Positions 6,081 to 53,272 of a stretch of DNA of 64,000 nt are shown piece by piece (position 1 is the first letter of the stretch; each line of letters starts with the position of its first letter). Location of the stretch: positions 8,346,902-8,410,901 of the forward strand of contig NC_087076.1 in the NCBI RefSeq assembly GCF_026151205.1, in the 5' to 3' direction. The notes beneath the pieces are model-generated. The model was not told the DNA's origin. It searched no databases and was given only the letters and a program-made list of their open reading frames with translations. Source of the DNA: Bolinopsis microptera (taxonomy: Eukaryota; Ctenophora; Tentaculata; Lobata; Bolinopsidae). The position numbers were made by a program, and so were the translations under genes.

Positions 6081-6350
6081 ATGACGTAGAGTAAAAATGC
6101 TTCCCTGTACTGGAGAGTTATGGGCAAAAAACCGTTTTGGTCACGTGACAGGCTAGTAAAACATGAATTCGATTGTTTAGGGCTCGGGTTAGGGTTAGAG
6201 TTGTGGTAAGGGTTATGGATAGCTTCGGGGTTATGGTCAGGGTTAAGGTTGGGATTAGGGTTTATGTAAAACTGTTTTGTACGGCTGCAAAACCATAAAA
6301 ACCAAAGTCATGTGAAATTTTTGGGCGAGCGAATTAGTAAAAGCGCCAAT
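5930..6350. mobile_element. MITE with telomere-like core, copy 1
   Basis: Inverted ends: CGCTCCTACTAAATCGCTCG with CCCAAATTTT, and AAATTTTTGGGCGAGCGAAT with TAGTAAAAGCG. The interior holds GGGTTAGGGTTAGAG-type repeats (6183-6265), a poly-C run at 6043-6080 and GGCTGCAAAACCATAAAAAC. Second copy at 17025-17395. Confidence 0.8.
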
Positions 6351-17024: not shown

Positions 17025-17395
17025 GCTCCTACTAAATCGCTCGCCCAAATTTTAAGAAAATTCTTGTGAAAAGGCCCTTCGGATGTGAAATTAATCTAAA
17101 TCGGTGTATTTTAGGACGCTGATTCCGAATCACCCCACATTACATAGGGTAAAAATGCTTCCACGGAGATTTATTGGCAAAAAACCGTTTTGGTCACGTG
17201 ACAGGCTAGTAAAACATGAACTCGATTGTTTAGGCCAGGGCTCATGGTTAGGGTTGTGGTAAGGGTTATGGTTAGCTTCGGGGTTATGGTTAGGGTTAGG
17301 GTTGGGATTAGGGTTTATGTACAACCGTTTTGTACGGCTGCAAAACCATAAAAACCAAAGTCACGTGAAATTTTTGGGCGAGAGAATTAGTAAAA
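17025..17395. mobile_element. MITE with telomere-like core, copy 2
   Basis: Second copy of the 5930-6350 element with the same inverted ends and GGTTAGGGTTAGGGTTGGGATT core (about 17280-17315). It lacks the poly-C run. It is directly abutted by the TTACCTGAGGACC element. Confidence 0.8.
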
Positions 17396-20577: not shown

Positions 20578-23500
20578 CTGGGAATAGATTACATTTTACA
20601 AACATACACGCCACTAACATACACTACAAATTATTACTGATTTCGATGTCTCAATCATGGACAAATAAATTTAAGGTGGAAGGGATATCAGTAAGGAAAA
20701 AGGAATCAATTTAATCTTAGAATTTAATCGAACCTGTCTAAATGTTGGCCTCTCTTTGGCTGGTCTGCTTTTATAACAATTCAACATCAGTTTTTTGAGG
20801 TCACCGGGGCAATCTCTTCTGATCTTTTTGGGGTCAGGAGTTAACATTCCCAGGCCCACTTTGAATATAATCTGATCCTTAGTAGTGATATGATTGTACG
20901 GTAGACAGTTCGTACTGAGTTCGTATAGGACTATTCCAAACGCGTACACGTCTGAATAAATGGAGTAGGGTGAATCGTTTCTGATAAGCTCAGGAGCCAT
21001 CCACAAGATGGACCCACTTGGCTGGCAGTTGATGAGCTGCTCAGAGTTACTCCACCTGCTCTTCACAGTTGCCAGACCAAAATCTCCGATCTTAACCGTG
21101 CTCTCGTCGGATAGGAAGATGTTGTTAGACTTGAGGTCCCGGTGGATAATGTTACGCGCGTGAAGATAGTTCATGCCCTGAGCTGTCTGGCGAGCTATTT
21201 CCACCAACTGGATCAGCTCGAACCTCACTTCCTCCACGTAGAGTCGCGACGACAGTGTGGAACCGTCACACCACTGAGTCACAATCGCGATGTAAGGTTT
21301 TGAAATACAGCCTACAAACAGCAGGATGTTGACGTGCCTTGTTTTCCTCAGGATGGCCACCTCGTTTTTGAACGCCTGCAACTGTGCAGGGGTGGGATAC
21401 GTTACATTAAGTTTCTTAACAGCAACCACACCGTGCCAGTAACCCTTGTAAACAGTCCCGAACGAGCCAGATCCGATCCTCTTGTCCACGACCACGTCCT
21501 CTTCCGAGATCTCCCAGTCGTCGGAGGAGTAGACGCGGTGTTTTCTGTTCAGAGTGGGTGAGGGCGGTCCGGGAGTGGGTGTGCTTTCTCTGCGGACTGT
21601 GGATACGGACGACTTTATGCTGCCGCTACGTCGCCGTGGTAAACTCCGTACTTATTTATGTTGTACGTGACGTTCGGTTCGGATATACTGCGGGTCCGGG
21701 GCACAAAGTTATCGTCGGTAGGGTATATTGGAGTGTGGAGCACTGCGTTTCCGTACCTGCTGAAATATAATGTGATGTTAAACGTTTGACCCTAACCATA
21801 GTTATGCCGATGAAATTTTAACTGGATCACTGTAATCGCTAAAAGGAAGATGTGCTGACGATATAATAGGAGGAAACACAATTAGTTTGGAAAGGCAGGG
21901 ACCAAGGTCAAAAGGAAATCGCGGCACGTGCAGAATCGCGATTTTTCCCATTCTCCGCGACAAATCACGATTTTTGACGTTTGCCGAGACAAAAAGATCC
22001 TCGCGACAAATTGCAATTATTCCAGTTCTCTGATGACCAAATTTGCGCATTCTCCTTTAAATCCGAGGGCCAAATATCACGTTCTTTGTTATTATATGGA
22101 ACTAATCACATCCACAGCCTTCCGAATGTAGGTACGGACCGAAAAAGTATTTTCGGCTCATTATGCTCAGGGTAGCATGAAACATGAACAAAAGTAGTTT
22201 CTAGAAAAACTTTGAAAATAATTTCGATTTAGAAAATTTTCGGTCCGAGTCATTCTCGATAGGTACAAGGAAAGTGCCTCAATATGTAAGTTACTCTCCT
22301 TGTTTCTATATAAACATAACTTTTATAATAATTCTTACGTGATAATTATAACAATTTTCTATTATCACTAGAAGCCGCACAGACCTACCATTTACACACA
22401 AACCAATTAGTAATTTTCATTACCCTAATCCTATGAACCAGTTCATCCCTAATTCATAATTCGTGTAACAACATCATGAAGAAGAGTTTGTTTAGATCTT
22501 AACACCCAACACTTAAGATGATTAATATAGATGCTATTGTTTTTCCTGACGAGCCTTTCGCTCCCTAATCTATCTATACTAACAAGCTAGTTAACGAATT
22601 TATGACATCTAAGTTAGCTCTGCAAATACATTATCTTTCGCAAAAGCAAATTCACCGCGATTTTGCCGCCTAGTTTGACTTGTCGCGGGCCGTGGCGCCA
22701 CGATTTTTGGCCTAAATAATCGCGATTTTCTTTTGTCCTTGGTAGGGACCGGTGAGAGACAAAGACAGAAGGGTTTCAAGTGAATTTAGTTCGATGGAAA
22801 ACAGGTGGAGTAAGGCAAGAGTTCGGTAGTAGCGAGTATATTAGTGTCTCACGAGGAGCCGACGGTTGACAAGGTTGGGTGACGGCTTGTTAGGAACCGT
22901 AAGCTAACAGAGGCAACATGTATGTGGGGTAATAATTTGTATAAATAGTGCGATTCTGTGGTCTGTAATCTGTACCTTACGTTGTGTCTGATGATAAGCA
23001 TAGTTGGAATTTATAGTATTCAATATTATGATAACTTTTGTAACTTTACAACAAGATTTCCAACACATTATGTGTATAATAGACGACTAACGTGACTAAA
23101 ATGACTCGATTTCAATCTGATGAGAGATTGTGATCCAGCTTGACACGTTACTCGTTTGCTAAGATTCACCCTCTTTTGTTTTTTAATTAGATGTCGATAG
23201 TTTTAAAAGTCAATGCATTACCAACTTGCCTTCTGATAATAATGATAAGAAAAATTGTTCTAGATATAATATTATGTTTTTCCTGATTTAAAAAAGTAAT
23301 TCTACTTTCTGATGTTTTTAATGTTACGTCATGAAAAACGTGTGACACTAAACGTAGTTATGGACAATGGACATGTTGATCTTATCTCATAGATACCAAA
23401 TTGACGTACACAAATCTGATAGAACGAATAACGGCCAATGGTGCAAAAAAGTGCAGTGATTGGTCAATACTAATGACTCAATAGTGCGATTCCGCACCCA

Positions 23501-29500: not shown

Positions 29501-31290
29501 GGCGAAGAAAGTATGGTACACACTACCTTAACCGTCACTGGCTAAAAACAAATCCTTCGGCTTCCTGTAATTGGCTGGTTGCACTTGTGTAACAATATGG
29601 CTGTTGGAATACTCCGAAGTGAAATAAGTGTCTATATAAAAAAAAGGGTGAAAGTTACAACACGATTTACGCAGAAGGGTGACAAATCCAGGTAATGTTG
29701 GCTCAAAGTTGCAAAAATTATTCATAGGTTATGCAATGAGTTATTAACATAATTGTCTTGATAACCTCATAACAGTTTGCACAAATAACTTAAGTCGATT
29801 AATTCTGCACAATCCCGTGACTTTAAAGGAGAAGTTCGCACAATTTAATTATGAAGATAGTGTGAGCTGAATGGGTGACGGAAAGTGTGATGATTCTTAT
29901 GTTGCGACAGCCGACTTTAAAAAGAGATTCTGTAATTTAGCAGGCTCGTTGAAAAAATTGAGAAAAAATGCAAATTTACATAATTTTTGATGCAATAAAA
30001 CTGACTATTAAAGAATTCTATTAGCCTCCTCCCTGCGACCACCGGCTTTCTAGTTCGTTTATAAAATAAGCTCTGAGTATCTAGATTACTGGAATTATAG
30101 ATTACCAGGTTATAGAAGCTCTGAGCTTCTATAACCTGATATAAAAGCACTCACCTGTAACCCGTGAGCAATAACCGCGTGCACACCGAACAGGATGCGA
30201 TCTTGAGGTAAGTTTTCCTTTCTAAAGTGTGGGGAGACGGTGAACCTCCTGTGTAGTCTATAGTGATCTGATCAGCATCTATGTCCTCTAAGTAGCTGTT
30301 CCATTCCAACCTTTCACTGCGACAATACATTATTATAGGATTGCGTATTTTTGACTTATAGACCACAAAAACAGCGAGTAATAAGCTATAAGCTAATTTG
30401 AAGGACTGAGAAAAGTTGTTACAAAGATACGGTGGTAAAGTTAAGTTAAGTCCGTGGTGACCAATACCCCCCCCCCCCCCCCCCCATAACAAACTTACAG
30501 TGTCAAAGTATCGTAAGCGTAACAATCAGCAGTCGTCAGATCTCTCAGTTTCAGACCTTTGGATAAAGTCTCTTCTAATGTCACGTCACTCTTAACTTTA
30601 ACCTGGATTTACAATTTCAATAAGAGAACTTCAAGATAAAGGCATTTATAACCCTAGCAACGCTAGAGGGTAGCAATTATCCTCCTCTTTAGTACAAGGA
30701 GGTTGATCTGCATATCGATGGGAACATGTTTACTGTGCAAATTTGTACACGCTTAAGTGTAAACAGGAAGAAGAAACTTGGCCAATAATCTAAGTTATAC
30801 CATATTTTTAACGTACGATTTCACGAGAAACCAATTGGTGACTGTCTCATAAACACTCAAAATATGACCGAACTGTGCAGTGTGCATATTAAGTAACCTT
30901 TGGCTATTTTGGCTAATTACAATTATGATATGATAGCAGCATATAGAATTATTAAATACTAGTGTAACCCGGCCTACGGCCGGGATTTCACTGCCGCAGT
31001 TAAAAAGGGTAGGAGTAATTACCCGCTGAGTCAAAACCCGCATTAGGTGACCCAATAGTTTCTTAAACAATAATCTCATAATCAGTTATTTCTTGTGGAT
31101 AATTAAGTCATTATTAGCCATGAGGCACCACACTCCATGATCATAAGGTCTGAACACCGAGTATTACACCTCATCACTCCCGTCTTGAACCGCTTTCTAA
31201 TTTTATTTAAATCGTTATAGAAATTAACCCTTGTTAACTCCGCACCACACCCGCATATTATATTTTAAAACACGCATAACATTGTCGTAT

Positions 31291-31326
<36 letters not shown>

Positions 31327-34300
31327 GTCCAAACAGACCCCAAACGCTAACAGTCCCCCCTCCCCTAATAAGCTTAAGGTATAACATTACAGCGAATCTT
31401 CCGGGCTAATCCAATTATGACGCTACTTAAATGCAGCTATAACATATTACACAGTAATGAGAGAGAGAGCAAGCCCCATAACTCTTGCCGTTCTGCTCAA
31501 GCAATTTTATGTAACATTTGTGGTACAAAACCATCAATTAAACCACTTACCACCGGCCGATTTAAAAAAAAATTTCCTATGGGCTTCATCAGAGTTTTGT
31601 CGGCACTATACCGAAAAAACCAGTCCCGTAACTATTACCGTTTTTTTTGTATAACTGTTTGGAAATTACACACAGACACACACACAGACACACACACAGA
31701 CACACACACATTCTGGTGTTATTAAGTTGATTCTTTCTGGGCGACGGCTGTACCTGCTTGCGTCATCGAACACTGAACAGCAAGATAATGTTCGTCTGAG
31801 CAAGATGATAGATTTTGCAATATCTGCAGGATCGGTAAATAATGACTTGCGTGCGTCATGCCAGGTGGTTATATCAAACAAAAGACGCAAGAATAGTATT
31901 GGTATATCTATAACAAAAAAAAGCACTACTACGATCAACTTAATAACACCAGAATGTGTGTGTGTCTGTGTGTGTGTCTGTGTGTGTGTCTGTGTGTAAT
32001 TTCCGAACGGTTATACAAAAAAAACGGTAATAGTTACGGGACTGGTTTTTTCGGTATAGTGCCGACAAAACTCTGACGAAGCCAATAAGCAAATTTTATA
32101 AAAATCGGCCGGTGGTAAGTGGTTTAATTGATGGTTTTGTACCACAAAATATGTTACATAAAATGGCTTGAGAAGAACGGCAAGAGTTACGGGGCTAGCT
32201 CTCTCTCTCTCTGCATATGTAGCGTATATATTACATGGCGTATATATTACATGGTCATATAATACTATAAACTTATTAGGGGAGGGAGTGCTCAAACGGT
32301 CTGTTTGGACTGTAGAGAGAGTTCATACTTTCATACGACAATGTAATGCATGTTCACAAATATGATAGGCTGGTGTGGTGCATGGTGTTAAGGGTTAATT
32401 TCTATTGATTATTGATTAAGAATTACTATCTTTTAAGCATACTATTGGATACGTGAGGGCACTCCGAATAGAATTGCTCGCCTAATCCGGGTTTTGACTC
32501 AGCGGGTAATTACTCCTACCCTTTTTAACTGCGGCAGTGAAATCCCGGCCGTAGGCCGGGTTACACTAGTAATATAAATACCGATAGTTTCTTCCTGATA
32601 TCCACGGCAGAGCGTGCGTATCCGTACGTTCAAGGAGTGCCCATATATCACAAAATGTAGAACCGCGCGCTTCTTAAAAATCAAATTTATTCGTCTGTCA
32701 TTGCCCGTGTGGCAATTTCACTTATTTTGGACAAAGCAGCACACATAACCTTTATTATCGATGCTAATATCCGCAGTTGTGTTACGAGGCCCCCAGAAGA
32801 AGTAAGACTGAAATTGGCAGTAAAGAAACGTGGTCAGCCTTCAATAGCTGGCTGCTGGCTGTTAGATAAGAGCTTGATTATATCACTAAATTCTCAATTA
32901 TAAAAACTACCTGACGGTATGCTTAATATATTAATTTCATTGGTAATACGAAAGATAATTCTAAAATTACATAAAGCCAACTAACGTGAGCACTGGCCAC
33001 AATGAGTCTAATACATTGCTATGATGTACATTTAGGACCTGAAATTGCACATTTGTAATCGGATGAATTAGGGGGAAAGGTATCTTAAGGGGGGTTTAGG
33101 GGGTATTATGAAGAGGGGTATGAGGGGGAGGATGAATTAGGGTGAGAGGTATTAGGGGGGTTTATGGGGTATTATGAGGAGGGGTATTACTGTATTAGGG
33201 CCAGTGGAGGGGGTATTAGGAACATAATACAACTGCGGCCACGGACTTCATTTCATTGCCCTGCACTCTGCAATGCTTAGAATATACCTGTTAGCAACAC
33301 TTGGGGATCTATAAATATGTTTTTTAAAACATAGTAGCGACTTATGATTACATGTTTTAACACTGTTAAATCAACAGGGTGAAACCCTCGTTTAAATCTT
33401 CAGAAAAAAAGCCTTCTTCAAATATCATGTCTGGCATAACTGTTATTAGTACTTCAAATCGCTGTTAGTATTCGTATCTTTCGTAATATTATCTTAAATA
33501 CAATCCTACTTAGTAGTTAGTGGTCAGAAAGATTACTTGATATTGAGAAGTCTGCCTAAAGTTACCACCTGCAAACTGTGCAGCTGTTGCAAAGTGTGCT
33601 GCAGAGTGCATCATGGAATCCCTGCAGAACTGAGTAATTCTGCTTATAAACAAAGAGCTGATAATTACAAGCAATACAATAACAGTTAGGGCAGCAGTTA
33701 GCACGCTTACACTTATCAGTTGTTTACTGTTTACTGAGGTTGAAGGGGATGGGCTGCTGATTTGGATATACTTATAAAGATGAGTAACTTTACTGTTTAA
33801 ATTCCTGGACAGAATATATTTATTGTAAAATTAGATAAATAGCAGACGTAAAGCTATGTAATGTGATAAGAAGAGTGCTGTATCAAATCAATATTCGACA
33901 TTCGCCTTCCATCAGCAATTAAGTTTCTTCTTATTTTTGTAAAACTTTGGTTTACAAATTTTAATTATATGGGGCTACACAATACATTTCTCCCTCATCT
34001 CTTCAAGTTTTAAATGGCAGCAGTTTTAAGAATCAATTTTGCACATCTTCAATTTGTAAGTCCCTGTTTCCTCACCCCCAAATTAAGGTCTAGCTCGCGC
34101 TAGACTCAATTGGTCCTCGTCTAAAAGCAACTATAAAGTCAATGAGTTGAACTGTAGTTGCGTGAAATATGATATGCCTATCTCGAAAAATTCTTCCCAT
34201 GACAATTCGCCGAAGTCAAGTTGTAAAAAAGTGATCTTTATTAGCAAACTTTGCCTAATGATAAGGGTGTTGTTGTTGTGAGTAACCACTAACCAGCTGT

Positions 34301-37300
34301 GCTAAATGCATATATTCTGGTATACTCCGCTCAATTTTAATGTAATTAGCTAATAGCTATAATTAGATATTCAGATCAAGACCAATTAGCCTAACAACAC
34401 TTCGTACTAGCCACCAAAGTGTGAACCACATGTTCTATAAGCTGTAGAGTACCACTAGAATACTAGCTCGCAGCTGTTGTGGAGACACATTTGTTTGTCT
34501 TTGTTACTGAAGAAAGTTGGGACAAACTCTAAAGGAGAGCTGCGAGCCCAGGTGATGTGGGACAGGGAAATTATTACTTTGTTTCTGTCTGGTTCTAGTA
34601 TACCGTTACAATAATGACTAATATATGTAAAGAGGGTTATCTGGCGTATATCGGAATATTTCCGATCTAGTAGTAGTAACTCTTACTTACCAGTAACTCT
34701 TACTCACCAGTAACTCTTACTCACCAGTAACTCTTACTCACCAGTAACTCCTACTCACCAGTAACTCTTACTCACCAGTAACTCTTACTCACCAGTAACT
34801 CTTACTCACCAGTAACTCTTACTCACCCGTAACTCTTACTTACCAGTGTGTGTTGTTTGTTAGGGAAGAATATTTTGACGTGTCTCCCCGAAAGTCTCAT
34901 CAGGACGGTATCGGTCTGGATACGAGGTACTTCCTCTGACTTTAACCTTTCCACCTTGTCGCGGTAATCTTCTATTTTCCTCTGTAGCTCCGCTTCTTCC
35001 TGTCGTTAATTAATTGATTAATTGGGTGCTATATAGAAAACGGAGTTTCTCTAGGTATTTAGTGTATGCTAGTCAAGCTCTAGTCACGTAGCACGAACGG
35101 CAGGGCGTACCGGATAGTAGAAATGAAACGAGTAACTAAAAAAGGAGAATTAAATAAATGGAAAAGTAATACAAAGTGAACGTCAACAGATAAAAACTTC
35201 CAAGTGTTCGCTCCAATCAATTGACGTGACTAATCACAAATGGTAGTGCTCAGTAAGACTGGCTACCGTCAATTTGAATCCCTTAAAATGATCAAGGGGC
35301 AACTCAGAAGTGAGCTCTCCACTTCCGGCTCTTCGGGTATACTCTCAAAACTCGTCACGCCACACTGCGTGACGGCACAACGCATTTGCTTGTACCACGC
35401 GACACGCCGTCTCGCCAATGAGCACTCCACTAGCAGTCACGCTGTGGTCGCGAGGACCAACCACAGGCCTGGCTGTAAGTCAGGTGCAAAGTGAGCGGAC
35501 GGCTCGTTTCAGACAGTTAGTCTGACAGTAGTTCTGCCAGCCAACCGACTTACACTCAAATGTGTAACTCCCAAATACGAACATATAAAAACATTGGTTA
35601 TTATATAATACCCGGAAACACATACTAAATTATACGTCCCGTAAACGTTATACTAAAACTAAGATATCCTAAAAGATATCTCTAAATACCATATTACAAC
35701 ATCTCTACCCAAAAATTTTTTTCGAATATTTTAAAACAATAAAATAATCGCCCTACTCAAAATTTAAATTTCAATGCTTCCACGCATCAAAAGTTCAAAA
35801 CTTAAAAATGAGTCAAGCCTCAAAGTATAATACACATCCCTAAACCTGTGCATTAAATTTAAATCCTCAAAAACAAATACAACATATAAAATTGCCTTCC
35901 ACAATCCTTCCAAAACCTTCCAAAACCTTCCAATACTTCCTTTTTCACCAAGTTGTAGAGTCTTCGGTGTTGAGTCTTCATCATCTGATAGAGATGTATC
36001 CGAATCTCTAAATCGTTCTTGACAAGCAAACAAAGAAGTCAAACTAAAAACGAAAGTTTCTAACGTTTCCGTCACTAAAGCAGCCCTGAACGGTTCGTGT
36101 TGCGAGTAAAGATCCTAATATCCCTATCAGTACTGTTCTGAAAGATACACGTGTTATACCTAAGTAAGGTACTATACCACTGCTAAGTACTAAGTAGAAA
36201 GTTTAGCTAAGTGAGTAAGACTATACTGTACTGAAACTAGATTCCAAAGTAAGTGTACTTCCCTATCCGGGCATCTCCTCGTCTTCTACTGGTTGAAGAG
36301 TTTTATAAGATCCGTAACTAGTCTAACGTTGTATCCTAGACGATCAGGTTGTCTCCGTTCCTCAGGTCTCCTAGTGTTATATCTGCGCTCCTCCCTCGGA
36401 GGGCTCTGTCTTCTTAGATCCACAGGAGAAAGCGATCCTGTTGTGTTAATGTCGTGCCCCACTGTATCATATGACATAGAACTTCTATGACCCATCGTTC
36501 CTTCACCAACAACCGGACTCGATGATCTTCTAGCGGCCGATCTTTCTCTAGCCGGAGTGAAGAATTCTGCAGAATTATCAACTGTTTCTACACTATCGCC
36601 TGAGGGAATGTTATGTGTGAGAGGTGTCACCGTACGAAAACTAGGATTTGTAGAATTCAGATCTAGTTGAGCAGGTCTATTAACAGCCTTAGGAGTTGAA
36701 CTAAAACTAGGTTGTTTATAAATGCTAGCTGCACCATCCTTCTCCAGACGAAACTTCTTCGGATGAACCTCTCTTCTCCTCACAACTGGTGCTCTTCTCA
36801 GTTGAAAATCTGTCTCCTCTTCACTATTACTATCGGAATAATCTACAAATCGCTCCGATGAGTCCGTCTTTAACTCAGCTCCACTGCTCTTAGCCTTATT
36901 GTAAATGTATGCCTGAGGTGGCTTACTTGCTGTACACAAGACCCCTCTCTCTAGAGAGCTTACATCTCTAGTAACCGCTGAAACATTTTCCACCGCATCA
37001 ACTGCTCCCGCAACTACTGATGCCTTCTCTGTAGTATCAGCCTGAGTAAGACTACAATTGCAATGGCGGCTATCAACTTCAGGCGTAATCTGAACAACGT
37101 TTACTGTGCTATGGTCATCACTAAACTTCTCATCAAACAAGAACCCCGGAATCATACTATCCTCAACACTCAACTCATTGCAAGATTCCTCGATCATATT
37201 ACTGCAATCATCCTTAACCACTGTCTCGCTGCTAACCGGTACCTGCAGCCTCTTAAACAGTATCGGGTGTTTACATCTATAATGTTCACGTGTCACCCGG

Positions 37301-40300
37301 TTTACTCCCTCTAAGGCAGCTTCAAGACTAAAAGTGCAACTGCTACTAATGCTCGCTACATTTTCTCGAGATTTACCATAACCCTGGTATTTATAGCGGT
37401 TAAATCCACCACACTTCTGGTTTCTCTTCCCCGAGATATGATTCGTGGTAAAAGTACAGTTAGCAAGCTCCTGAAGCTTCCTGATGACAGAAGACGACAC
37501 TTTCGAAAATCTCATTACAATCTCATAAATACGTGTGTTTTTGACCGCGGGTGACCTCCTCTTAAATCTAGGGCCACCCTTTAGAAGTTTAAAGGCACCT
37601 GACTGTTAGGTCTATACACTCTGTTCCAACTCTGTTGGCCATAACCACTCTGATATGAAGACCCTCTGTCTTGATATCTACCTCTATTACCAGCTAATCT
37701 GCTCGGACAGTTCCTCTGAAAATGTCCAATATCACCACACTCCCAACAACCTTCCAACTGATGGCGAACGTTACGATCATCATTTCTCATGGTAGCTTAA
37801 TCTCACAAATACGAGCTATCTATCTAGATTTAACTGTACTGCGAAGCTTACAAACGGCTGTAAAACTGAGTGCTCGTTAAAACGATAGCACTGGAATATA
37901 CACTATACAGGTACCACAAAATGCGTAGCAACACTTACCAAATCTAGTAGGAAGTACTGAAGATCTAAGTCAACCTCCACGTAATTCTTCTGAACTGCGA
38001 CGTAACCCCGAACTTAGCTTAGCAAATGACAACGTTAGGATCTTATCGAAACTATACTGAATATAGGTGATAAAAGAAGAATCACGAGCGAGAAAATAGC
38101 AACACTAAAAGTGGCCTCCAGATATAGAAAACGGAGTTTCTCTAGGTATTTAGTGTATGCTAGTCAAGCTCTAGTCACGTAGCACGAACGGCAGGGCGTA
38201 CCGGATAGTAGAAATGAAACGAGTAACTAAAAAAGGAGAATTAAATAAATGGAAAAGTAATACAAAGTGAACGTCAACAGATAAAAACTTCCAAGTGTTC
38301 GCTCCAATCAATTGACGTGACTAATCACAAATGGTAGTGCTCAGTAAGACTGGCTACCGTCAATTTGAATCCCTTAAAATGATCAAGGGGCAACTCAGAA
38401 GTGAGCTCTCCACTTCCGGCTCTTCGGGTATACTCTCAAAACTCGTCACGCCACACTGCGTGACGGCACAACGCATTTGCTTGTACCACGCGACACGCCG
38501 TCTCGCCAATGAGCACTCCACTAGCAGTCACGCTGTGGTCGCGAGGACCAACCACAGGCCTGGCTGTAAGTCAGGTGCAAAGTGAGCGGACGGCTCGTTT
38601 CAGACAGTTAGTCTGACAGTAGTTCTGCCAGCCAACCGACTTACACTCAAATGTGTAACTCCCAAATACGAACATATAAAAACATTGGTTATTATATAAT
38701 ACCCGGAAACACATACTAAATTATACGTCCCGTAAACGTTATACTAAAACTAAGATATCCTAAAAGATATCTCTAAATACCATATTACAACAGCTATTAG
38801 CAATAAGTCAGTAAGTTATCATTTTTGAGACGTGTATAAATCCGGTTTGTAATCATTATTATATAGTTTATTTAAGACAAAGGTCAACCTTAATCAGATT
38901 TCTGGCCAGCTCAGTCATGAATTGTTATCGAGTTGAAGAATAAAATCAACGTACTGCCCTTATTATCTAACCACTAATAAACAACTAGTTCTTCAAACGA
39001 TCTAAGACATTTAACAATTTGTTAGTTTTTGCCCAAATTCCACGGGGAGATCATATATCCTAAAGAAGAACCAATCCAGCATGTATATTGTAAATTGTAA
39101 TTTGTAAATGAATTTTGAACTCAAGTATACTCGGTTATGACATTAACCCGTTACAAGTATCTCTATCTTCTAAATGCACTGCCCCATAGGCCTAGGGCCC
39201 ATACAAACAAATTTAGGCTGAAGATGACAACTTAGATAATGAAGATAGCGCTGTAAATTGTTCGTTTTTTCTGAGTCAGATGTCCAGACGACGATGATGA
39301 TTCCGATGTAATCGAATGATTAAGTAATTAATTACATGTGACTACTACTGACTACATGACATGTTTTGACACGTGACATCGAGAAACCGTACAGCTGTTG
39401 CATCAATCAATTAAATCGAAGTATCGTTGTCAAAATATCCACCCTAAACAGATATCTAGCCAATTTTTTGTTGTTGGTGAAACACATTAAACAGAACGTA
39501 ATCACAACAAAATATATCGAATGATGTTGCTCTAAATATCAAGTATGTCTGCACGTGCATTGCATTTGCGCGTTCCACTCTGATCCTATTACAGGTTACT
39601 ATACAACTTCATATTTCTCATCCAATTTGCACGTAGACGAACATACAAACAGAAACCTCCAAATTATAAGGTAGATGACTAAATTTGTACATTACATAAT
39701 TAGTATCTTTGTACATTACATAATCTTATTAGTGATGACTAAATGACTACTGGTTAATCGTTCCCAGTTTCAGCTACTCAATGATAACTTAGTGTAAATT
39801 GGGTAAATTTTACCGTCGTTTTGTCCCGGTGATGGGACCTGTGTAGAAAAATTTATCAGGAAGTTGAAAGAATAATTTGATGTATAAATCTTCAATATTT
39901 ACCAAATGAAAACTCTCGTCCGCTTGATAAGAGAATTTGTCTTAAGTTATGAGTATGAAGGAGAAGCAAAAATTAAAGCCTCAGCTCACAACAAAGTTGA
40001 TGAGCAGATGCAAATATACTGTATAATTTGTACTACGAGCAAATTATTTTCAAGAGGTACATCTTACTACATATTTTAAAGCGAGACGGTATATAATATA
40101 TATCTGTTGCCATTTTACTGACACCACGACTTCAAATTTAACACGACTTTCCGCGAAAACCGAGAGATAAATATTTTTTGAGTGGGTCGACTGCTTTTAT
40201 GGCCTTTTGACCAGCATGAAGAAGTACTAAATTTCCCAAGGAAGGAATAATGTAGGTCTCAAAAAAATGTCTGAATGTCTGAATGTCTGAATGTCTGTTG

Positions 40301-52380: not shown

Positions 52381-52388
52381 AACTACAG

Positions 52389-53272
52389 CAAATCTATTTT
52401 CTCTACGAACTGGGCCCGAGTTACTTGTTTTAAAATACAGCAAATCCATCTTCTCTACGAACTGGGCCCGAGTTACTTGTTTTAAAATACAGCAAATCCA
52501 TCTTCTCTACGAACTGGGCCCGAGTTACTTGTTTTAAAATACAACAAATCCATCTTCTCTACGAACTGGGCCCGAGTTACTTGTTTTAAAATACAGCAAA
52601 TCCATCTTCTCTACGAACTGGGCCCGAGTTACTTGTTTTAAAATACAGCAAATCCATCTTCTCTACGAACTGGGCCCGAGTTACTTGTTTTAAAATACAG
52701 CAAATCCATCTTCTCTACGAACTGGGCCCGAGTTACTTGTTTTAAAATACAGCAAATCCATCTTCTCTACGAACTGGGCCCGAGTTACTTGTTTTAAAAT
52801 ACAGCAAATCCATCTTCTCTACGAACTGGGCCCGAGTTACTTGTTTTAAAATACAGCAAATCCATCTTCTCTACGAACTGGGCCCGAGTGACTTGTTTTA
52901 AAATACAGCAAATCCATCTTCTCTACGAACTGGGCCCGAGTTACTTGTTTTAAAATACAGCAAATCCATCTTCTCTACGAACTGGGCCCGAGTTACTTGT
53001 TTTAAAATACAGCAAATCCATCTTCTCTACGAACTGGGCCCGAGTTACTTGTTTTAAAATACAGCAAATCCATCTTCTCTACGAACTGGGCCCGAGTTAC
53101 TTGTTTTAAAATACAGCAAATCCATCTTCTCTACGAACTGGGCCCGAGTTACTTGTTTTAAAATACAGCAAATCCATCTTCTCTACGAACTGGGCCCGAG
53201 TTACTTGTTTTAAAATACAGCAAATCCATCTTCTCTACGAACTGGGCCCGAGTTACTTGTTTTAAAATACGA
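52389..53272. repeat. 52-bp satellite, 17 copies
   Basis: Unit parts: CAAATCCATCTTCTCTACGA, ACTGGGCCCGAGTTACTTGT, TTTAAAATACAG. Copies are nearly identical (single-base variants such as CAACAAAT and GAGTGACTT). No ORF crosses it. Homogeneity implies recent expansion. Confidence 0.97.

Follow-up and report, generated by a model that had tools for sequence, protein, structure and literature searches.

How does a gene fare when one of its splice donors has been copied, along with the last bases of the exon before it, into a tandem array? This is raised by ten successive copies of a 5′ splice site in the RAF kinase gene of the comb jelly Bolinopsis microptera, and it leads to two further questions, namely how the spliceosome chooses one donor among ten that are near-identical, and whether breakage or slippage is more frequent at splice donors than elsewhere. 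The array is best read as a ‘mirage’ (a minisatellite lying over an exon border) in a new lineage, with several counterparts in a genome that abounds in arrays; a regulatory role for it, as in the original suggestion that copy number could tune RAF output, is unproven.

The RAF gene and its repeated donor

The gene was followed on the minus strand of the window, by which we mean the whole 64-kb stretch of DNA that was analysed. RAF exon 2 (34844..34999, minus strand) encodes a coiled stretch and the start of the RAS-binding domain (RBD); its 5′ end at 34999 was placed by reading of ACGACAG/GAAGAAG (here and below a slash marks a splice border), and its 3′ end is at 34844, where the terminal letters on the minus strand are ..AACAAACAACACACACTG. 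It is joined in phase 0 to exon 3 (30499..30602, minus strand), which encodes the rest of the RBD, across a putative intron 2 of 4241 nt (30603..34843, minus strand). Exon 4 (30155..30316, minus strand) carries the end of the RBD and the start of the C1 domain, and going by the kinase-domain motifs found downstream of the RBD exons (20997..21477, minus strand) the gene looks intact. As a check on exon identity, 34844 was spliced to 30602, and 30499 to 30316. The joined exons 2–4 yielded an open stretch of 142 residues that matches the Pfam RBD (8.6e-12) and has RAF1 chains as its closest relatives of solved structure (2.7e-15), the RAF1 alignment being gapless over the exon 2/exon 3 join of the donor 1 product (..NKQHTL/VKVK..). 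Exon 2 has a single match in the assembly, which comprises 264,652,675 bases in 232 contigs and represents one haplotype.

Two further elements were noted around exon 2. Just upstream of it, in intron 1, are identical 300-base direct repeats (window 35031-35330 and 38122-38421) that lie 3091 bp apart and have between them gag-like ORFs and, by eye, a zinc-knuckle-like stretch; the repeat pair and its gag-like ORFs (35031-38421) look like an LTR retroelement. Intron 2 holds a short inverted-repeat element, GCTCGCAGCT..AGCTGCGAGC (window 34466-34547), that is MITE-like by eye.

Directly after exon 2, ten 17-bp units follow one another on the minus strand from 34843 to 34674, with starts at 34843, 34826, ... 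34690; TRF reports the array as 34675-34847, with a period of 17, 10.2 copies and 96% matches. The unit is made up of four exon bases (ACTG) and 13 intron bases and hence spans the exon–intron border. Unit 1 (34827..34843, minus strand) reads GTAAGTAAGAGTTACGG and contains the productive donor, ACTG/GTAAGTAAG; units 2–9 (34691..34826, minus strand) follow, and unit 10 (34674..34690, minus strand) continues into ACTACTACTAG. All ten units open with GTRAGT, which is GTAAGT in units 1 and 10 and GTGAGT in units 2–9, such that the edge units differ from the inner ones at +3, as concerted evolution that leaves out the edges would predict, though no more than a handful of variants is present in total. 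Ten near-identical consecutive 17-mers are not a product of chance. The original prediction, that the donor of RAF exon 2 exists in ten tandem 17-bp copies placed at the exon 2/intron 2 border, was borne out by TRF and by in-register reading of the minus strand: the exon is real, the unit is ACTG followed by GTRAGT, there are ten donor-like sites and the length of 17 bp is indeed indivisible by 3. Some details needed amendment. The intron had been started at 34844, and its first base is 34843; CTG had been placed before every donor, and whilst all ten units are donor-like, unit 2 is preceded by CGG and unit 6 is GTGAGTAGG.

Tandem arrays are prone to mis-sizing in assemblies, and an artefact of this kind could in principle account for the array. 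The units, however, differ from one another at defined places (1, 2, 6 and 10) and those parts of the flanks that were tested are single-copy, which makes an artefact very unlikely, although the unit number may still be off. Since tandem arrays are numerous in the window (78 TRF rows), it could also be supposed that RAF has a dispersed satellite, or an intron-like mobile element, as a chance neighbour. Against this, the first four bases of the unit are coding exon, and a genome-wide search with the consensus unit at 0–1 mismatch returned nine places, 9/9 of them inside the RAF array. The check suggested with the original prediction, for the same array away from exons, thus found none, and a dispersed satellite or introner-like element, which can hardly be credited, is refuted for this assembly. 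When up to two mismatches were allowed, 40 places were returned, comprising 10 in the RAF array and 30 elsewhere, the latter being fewer than the 85 from a reversed-pattern control.

Products of the ten donors and birth of the array

The gapless RAF1 join and the RBD match point, by homology, to donor 1 as the donor of the productive mRNA: splicing from it joins the exons and gives the only product predicted to be intact. Use of donor 2 shifts the frame and leads to a stop six residues into exon 3 sequence, whilst with donors 3–10, or with the intron retained, reading ends at an in-frame TGA within the GTGAGT of unit 2 (34823..34825, minus strand). A premature stop consequently results from 9/9 distal RAF donors, and in-frame isoforms of the IFI6 type are not among the predicted products. 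It had been proposed that the frame would be kept if three (51 nt) or six (102 nt) units were retained; both products are still nonsense because reading runs into the TGA of unit 2. Behind this lies a simple rule: GTRAGT holds either TAA or TGA, and a period that is not divisible by 3 brings one of these into frame within the first three units, whatever the phase of the intron; with the 17-bp period it is framed by unit 2. The rule offers a simple reason why arrays of this type need not yield aberrant proteins. A minisatellite with multiple splice donors was reportedly described by Turri and colleagues in 1995 in human IFI6 (6-16), where the unit is 12 bp and the frame would be kept.

Donor 1 is not distinguished by its strength, because the predicted U1 pairing of donors 2–9 is equal or better (donor 1, −10.7 kcal/mol; donor 2, −13.1; donors 3–9, −10.8), and this counts against the reading of the array as a mirage in which donor 1 alone is used. 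Ten near-equal U1 sites, with every distal product nonsense, would suit a poison-donor rheostat, in which distal donors compete for U1, the resulting transcripts pass to nonsense-mediated decay and unit number sets the dose of RAF; IFI6 moreover gives a precedent for minisatellite donors in use. However, the same property is found in arrays of unrelated genes (see below), the rule given above makes the stop automatic such that selection is unneeded, and amphioxus mirages are described as leaving splicing undisturbed (PMC3087553, PMC3902484). A rheostat is therefore considered improbable.

The mirage reading, in which the proximal donor is productive and the others are near-neutral bystanders, is given a probability of roughly 80%. 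The array would have originated when 17 bp straddling the RAF exon 2/intron 2 border were duplicated in tandem. The site without its nine extra units reads ..CACACTGGTAAGTAAGAGTTACTACTACTAG.., in which the letters ACT, with which the unit starts at the exon end, recur 17 bp later; slippage between the two members of this short direct repeat is the probable mechanism. Ordinary expansion inside the array may then have followed, with the edge units keeping GTAAGT and the inner units coming to have GTGAGT in common. To judge from the gene structure, the intact exon-proximal donor would continue to give normal RAF mRNA, and the other nine donors would sit in the intron as bystanders, any use of which should give a nonsense transcript. 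A near-neutral array is expected since the proximal donor is intact and distal use is nonsense; its cost would be at most a slight loss of RAF mRNA to nonsense-mediated decay. That the array is present at all may, on the evidence of the sample described below, reflect a genome that is very rich in tandem arrays.

Repeated donors elsewhere in the genome

Arrays of period at least 7 were tallied in a 284-kb sample composed of the 64-kb window, the stretches L022 and L023, and 20 stretches of contig C1. They number 155 and cover 28,178 of the 283,901 sampled bases (about 10%). GTRAGT lies inside six of these 155 arrays, and where it is present in many copies the array begins at an exon in 3/3 cases (RAF, L022 and L036); the other three arrays, of 2.0-2.6 copies, are at window 376, window 7426 and L035:3895. 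L022 contains an AGC-kinase-like C-tail exon (Pfam Pkinase_C, 3e-6) with a 22-bp unit, and L036 a TGF-beta-receptor-like gene with 28- and 31-bp units, for which the Pfam match (Activin_recp, 0.005) is below the curated cut-off. Both give sensible proteins when spliced from donor 1, and premature stops from all of their distal donors (5/5 in L022 and 28/28 in L036). A second array in L036 (9394-9570; 12 bp, 14.8 copies) was observed shortly past the next donor, CAG/GTACAG.

Clusters of GTRAGT were also collected along C1, where ten were listed, a GTGA run at C1:449233 was left out and the remaining nine were taken in order. Five of the nine adjoin a readable exon (the other four being L047, L049, L050 and L051), and in two of these five, L048 and L052, the array is donor-spanning; several of the array-flanking exons were called by reading, with a Pfam match absent. 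The donor-spanning array of L048 follows a sushi-like exon of this sort, without a Pfam match. L052 has an LMF1-like exon (Pfam LMF1_C, 1.7e-28) with arrays on both sides, one of 14 bp at the acceptor and one of 65 bp that spans the donor. In L045 an array abuts the donor of an exon that is CDK-like by eye and has no Pfam match, and the CDK-like exon of L044 has one array ~30 bp into the intron and a second that carries an acceptor-like TTTCTCAG/GTAGTGAC. The array in L046 ends ~22 bp before an acceptor-like CAG, the exon being called by eye with no Pfam match. In both L046 and L052 the GTRAGT that flagged the cluster is on the antisense strand. Donor-spanning arrays are thus found, by reading, in four more genes, which are AGC-kinase-, TGF-beta-receptor-, sushi- and LMF1-like, and a donor array is therefore not special to RAF. 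Other arrays were recorded in passing: AGGTRAGT arrays with 32-bp spacing on the minus strand at C1:36576-37703 and 761375-762150, perhaps one dispersed family; degenerate TTAGGG-type arrays at window 6177-6262 and 17246-17315, away from contig ends; and, at window 52384-53270, an array in which a 52-bp unit is present in 17 copies that are 99% alike.

It is possible, although doubtful, that splice donors in this genome are hotspots for the birth or retention of arrays, for example through transcription-linked breaks or through tolerance behind an intact first donor. Triples of GTRAGT outnumber those of the reversed word (27,384 vs 10,840) where the single words are equal (324 vs 313), and for AGGTRAGT the figures are 2,085 vs 194, but a small number of long arrays inflate these unit counts. 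Counted as clusters, and among the matches listed, which are partly listed by strand, AGGTRAGT is in excess over its control (7 in 9.36 Mb vs 5 in 39.75 Mb; P 0.003 to 0.04, depending on normalisation), whereas GTRAGT is not (10 in 1.29 Mb vs 12 in 2.11 Mb; P 0.30). Within the 284-kb sample AGGTRAGT occurs inside arrays 0 times, against three for the reversed word. An array lies near 13 of 147 exon proxies, crude ones that rest on a codon score whose training set of 871 codons came in part from array-flanking exons; the shifted mean is 7.2%, and 96 of 500 shifts were as high. With this shift control and these proxies, arrays were therefore not significantly enriched overall at exon borders in the 284-kb sample. 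The hotspot evidence is mixed, the tests being in conflict with one another. The genome-wide excess of donor-like words in arrays is not predicted by plain random placement and to that extent counts against the mirage reading. A tentative extension would be that consensus donors seed arrays several-fold above matched words, and that a sizeable number of genes carry repeated donors, placed behind one that works and made harmless by the nonsense rule.

Comparison with known exon-border minisatellites

To our knowledge, the exon-border minisatellites of amphioxus have remained a curiosity of cephalochordates for which no mechanism has been offered. Several such arrays in a distant, array-rich genome make the choice of one donor among many, and the fragility of donors, testable at scale. 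A search for work on ctenophore minisatellites or on tandem repeats at splice sites, which covered titles and the starts of abstracts and few subscription papers, returned no relevant paper.

Minisatellite-like duplications of exon–intron borders were described in the globin and Adh3 genes of amphioxus and named mirages; they occur at both 5′ and 3′ borders, have six and three units in two haplotypes, and were found by RT-PCR not to interfere with regular splicing (PMC3087553). TnC and PGBD5 were later added, and the mirages of Adh and TnC were stated to generate no aberrant mRNAs (PMC3902484). The RAF array resembles those of Adh3, BflGb6/BflGb9, TnC and PGBD5 in having tandem border-spanning units with splice signals, and its 17-bp unit falls within the 10-72 bp given for amphioxus Adh3. 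Donor and acceptor borders are both affected in the amphioxus genes described and, by reading, in the Bolinopsis genome. The RAF array differs in lineage (a ctenophore) and in gene (RAF), and is known here from genome sequence; GTRAGT is kept by 10/10 RAF units, whereas in the amphioxus arrays not all units keep the donor. A ctenophore origin agrees with a glutamate receptor on contig C12 (L054), the first lobe of which matched just four solved chains at 1e-15 or better, three of ML032222a iGluR (Mnemiopsis leidyi) and 4zdm (Pleurobrachia), all of them from ctenophores. With a longer stretch of L054 ML032222a came twelfth, and a further receptor, L053, had no ctenophore chain in its best 60. 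RAF was also judged too dissimilar from vertebrate RAF to come from amphioxus.

Human IFI6 is likewise similar in that the array stands at an exon end and its units act as donors, two downstream repeat units being reported to serve in this way and to give protein isoforms (PMC4526556), whereas with the 17-bp unit of RAF the distal donors are all nonsense. By analogy, this use of downstream units would count against the view of the distal RAF donors as bystanders. Tandem copies of splice signals also result where introns are reported to be gained through the tandem duplication of stretches that contain AGGT (PMC4974935), but the RAF intron already exists and grows, and no new one is made. The RAF array joins the known exon-border minisatellites: it lies outside the chordates, and belongs to a class that is already in print.
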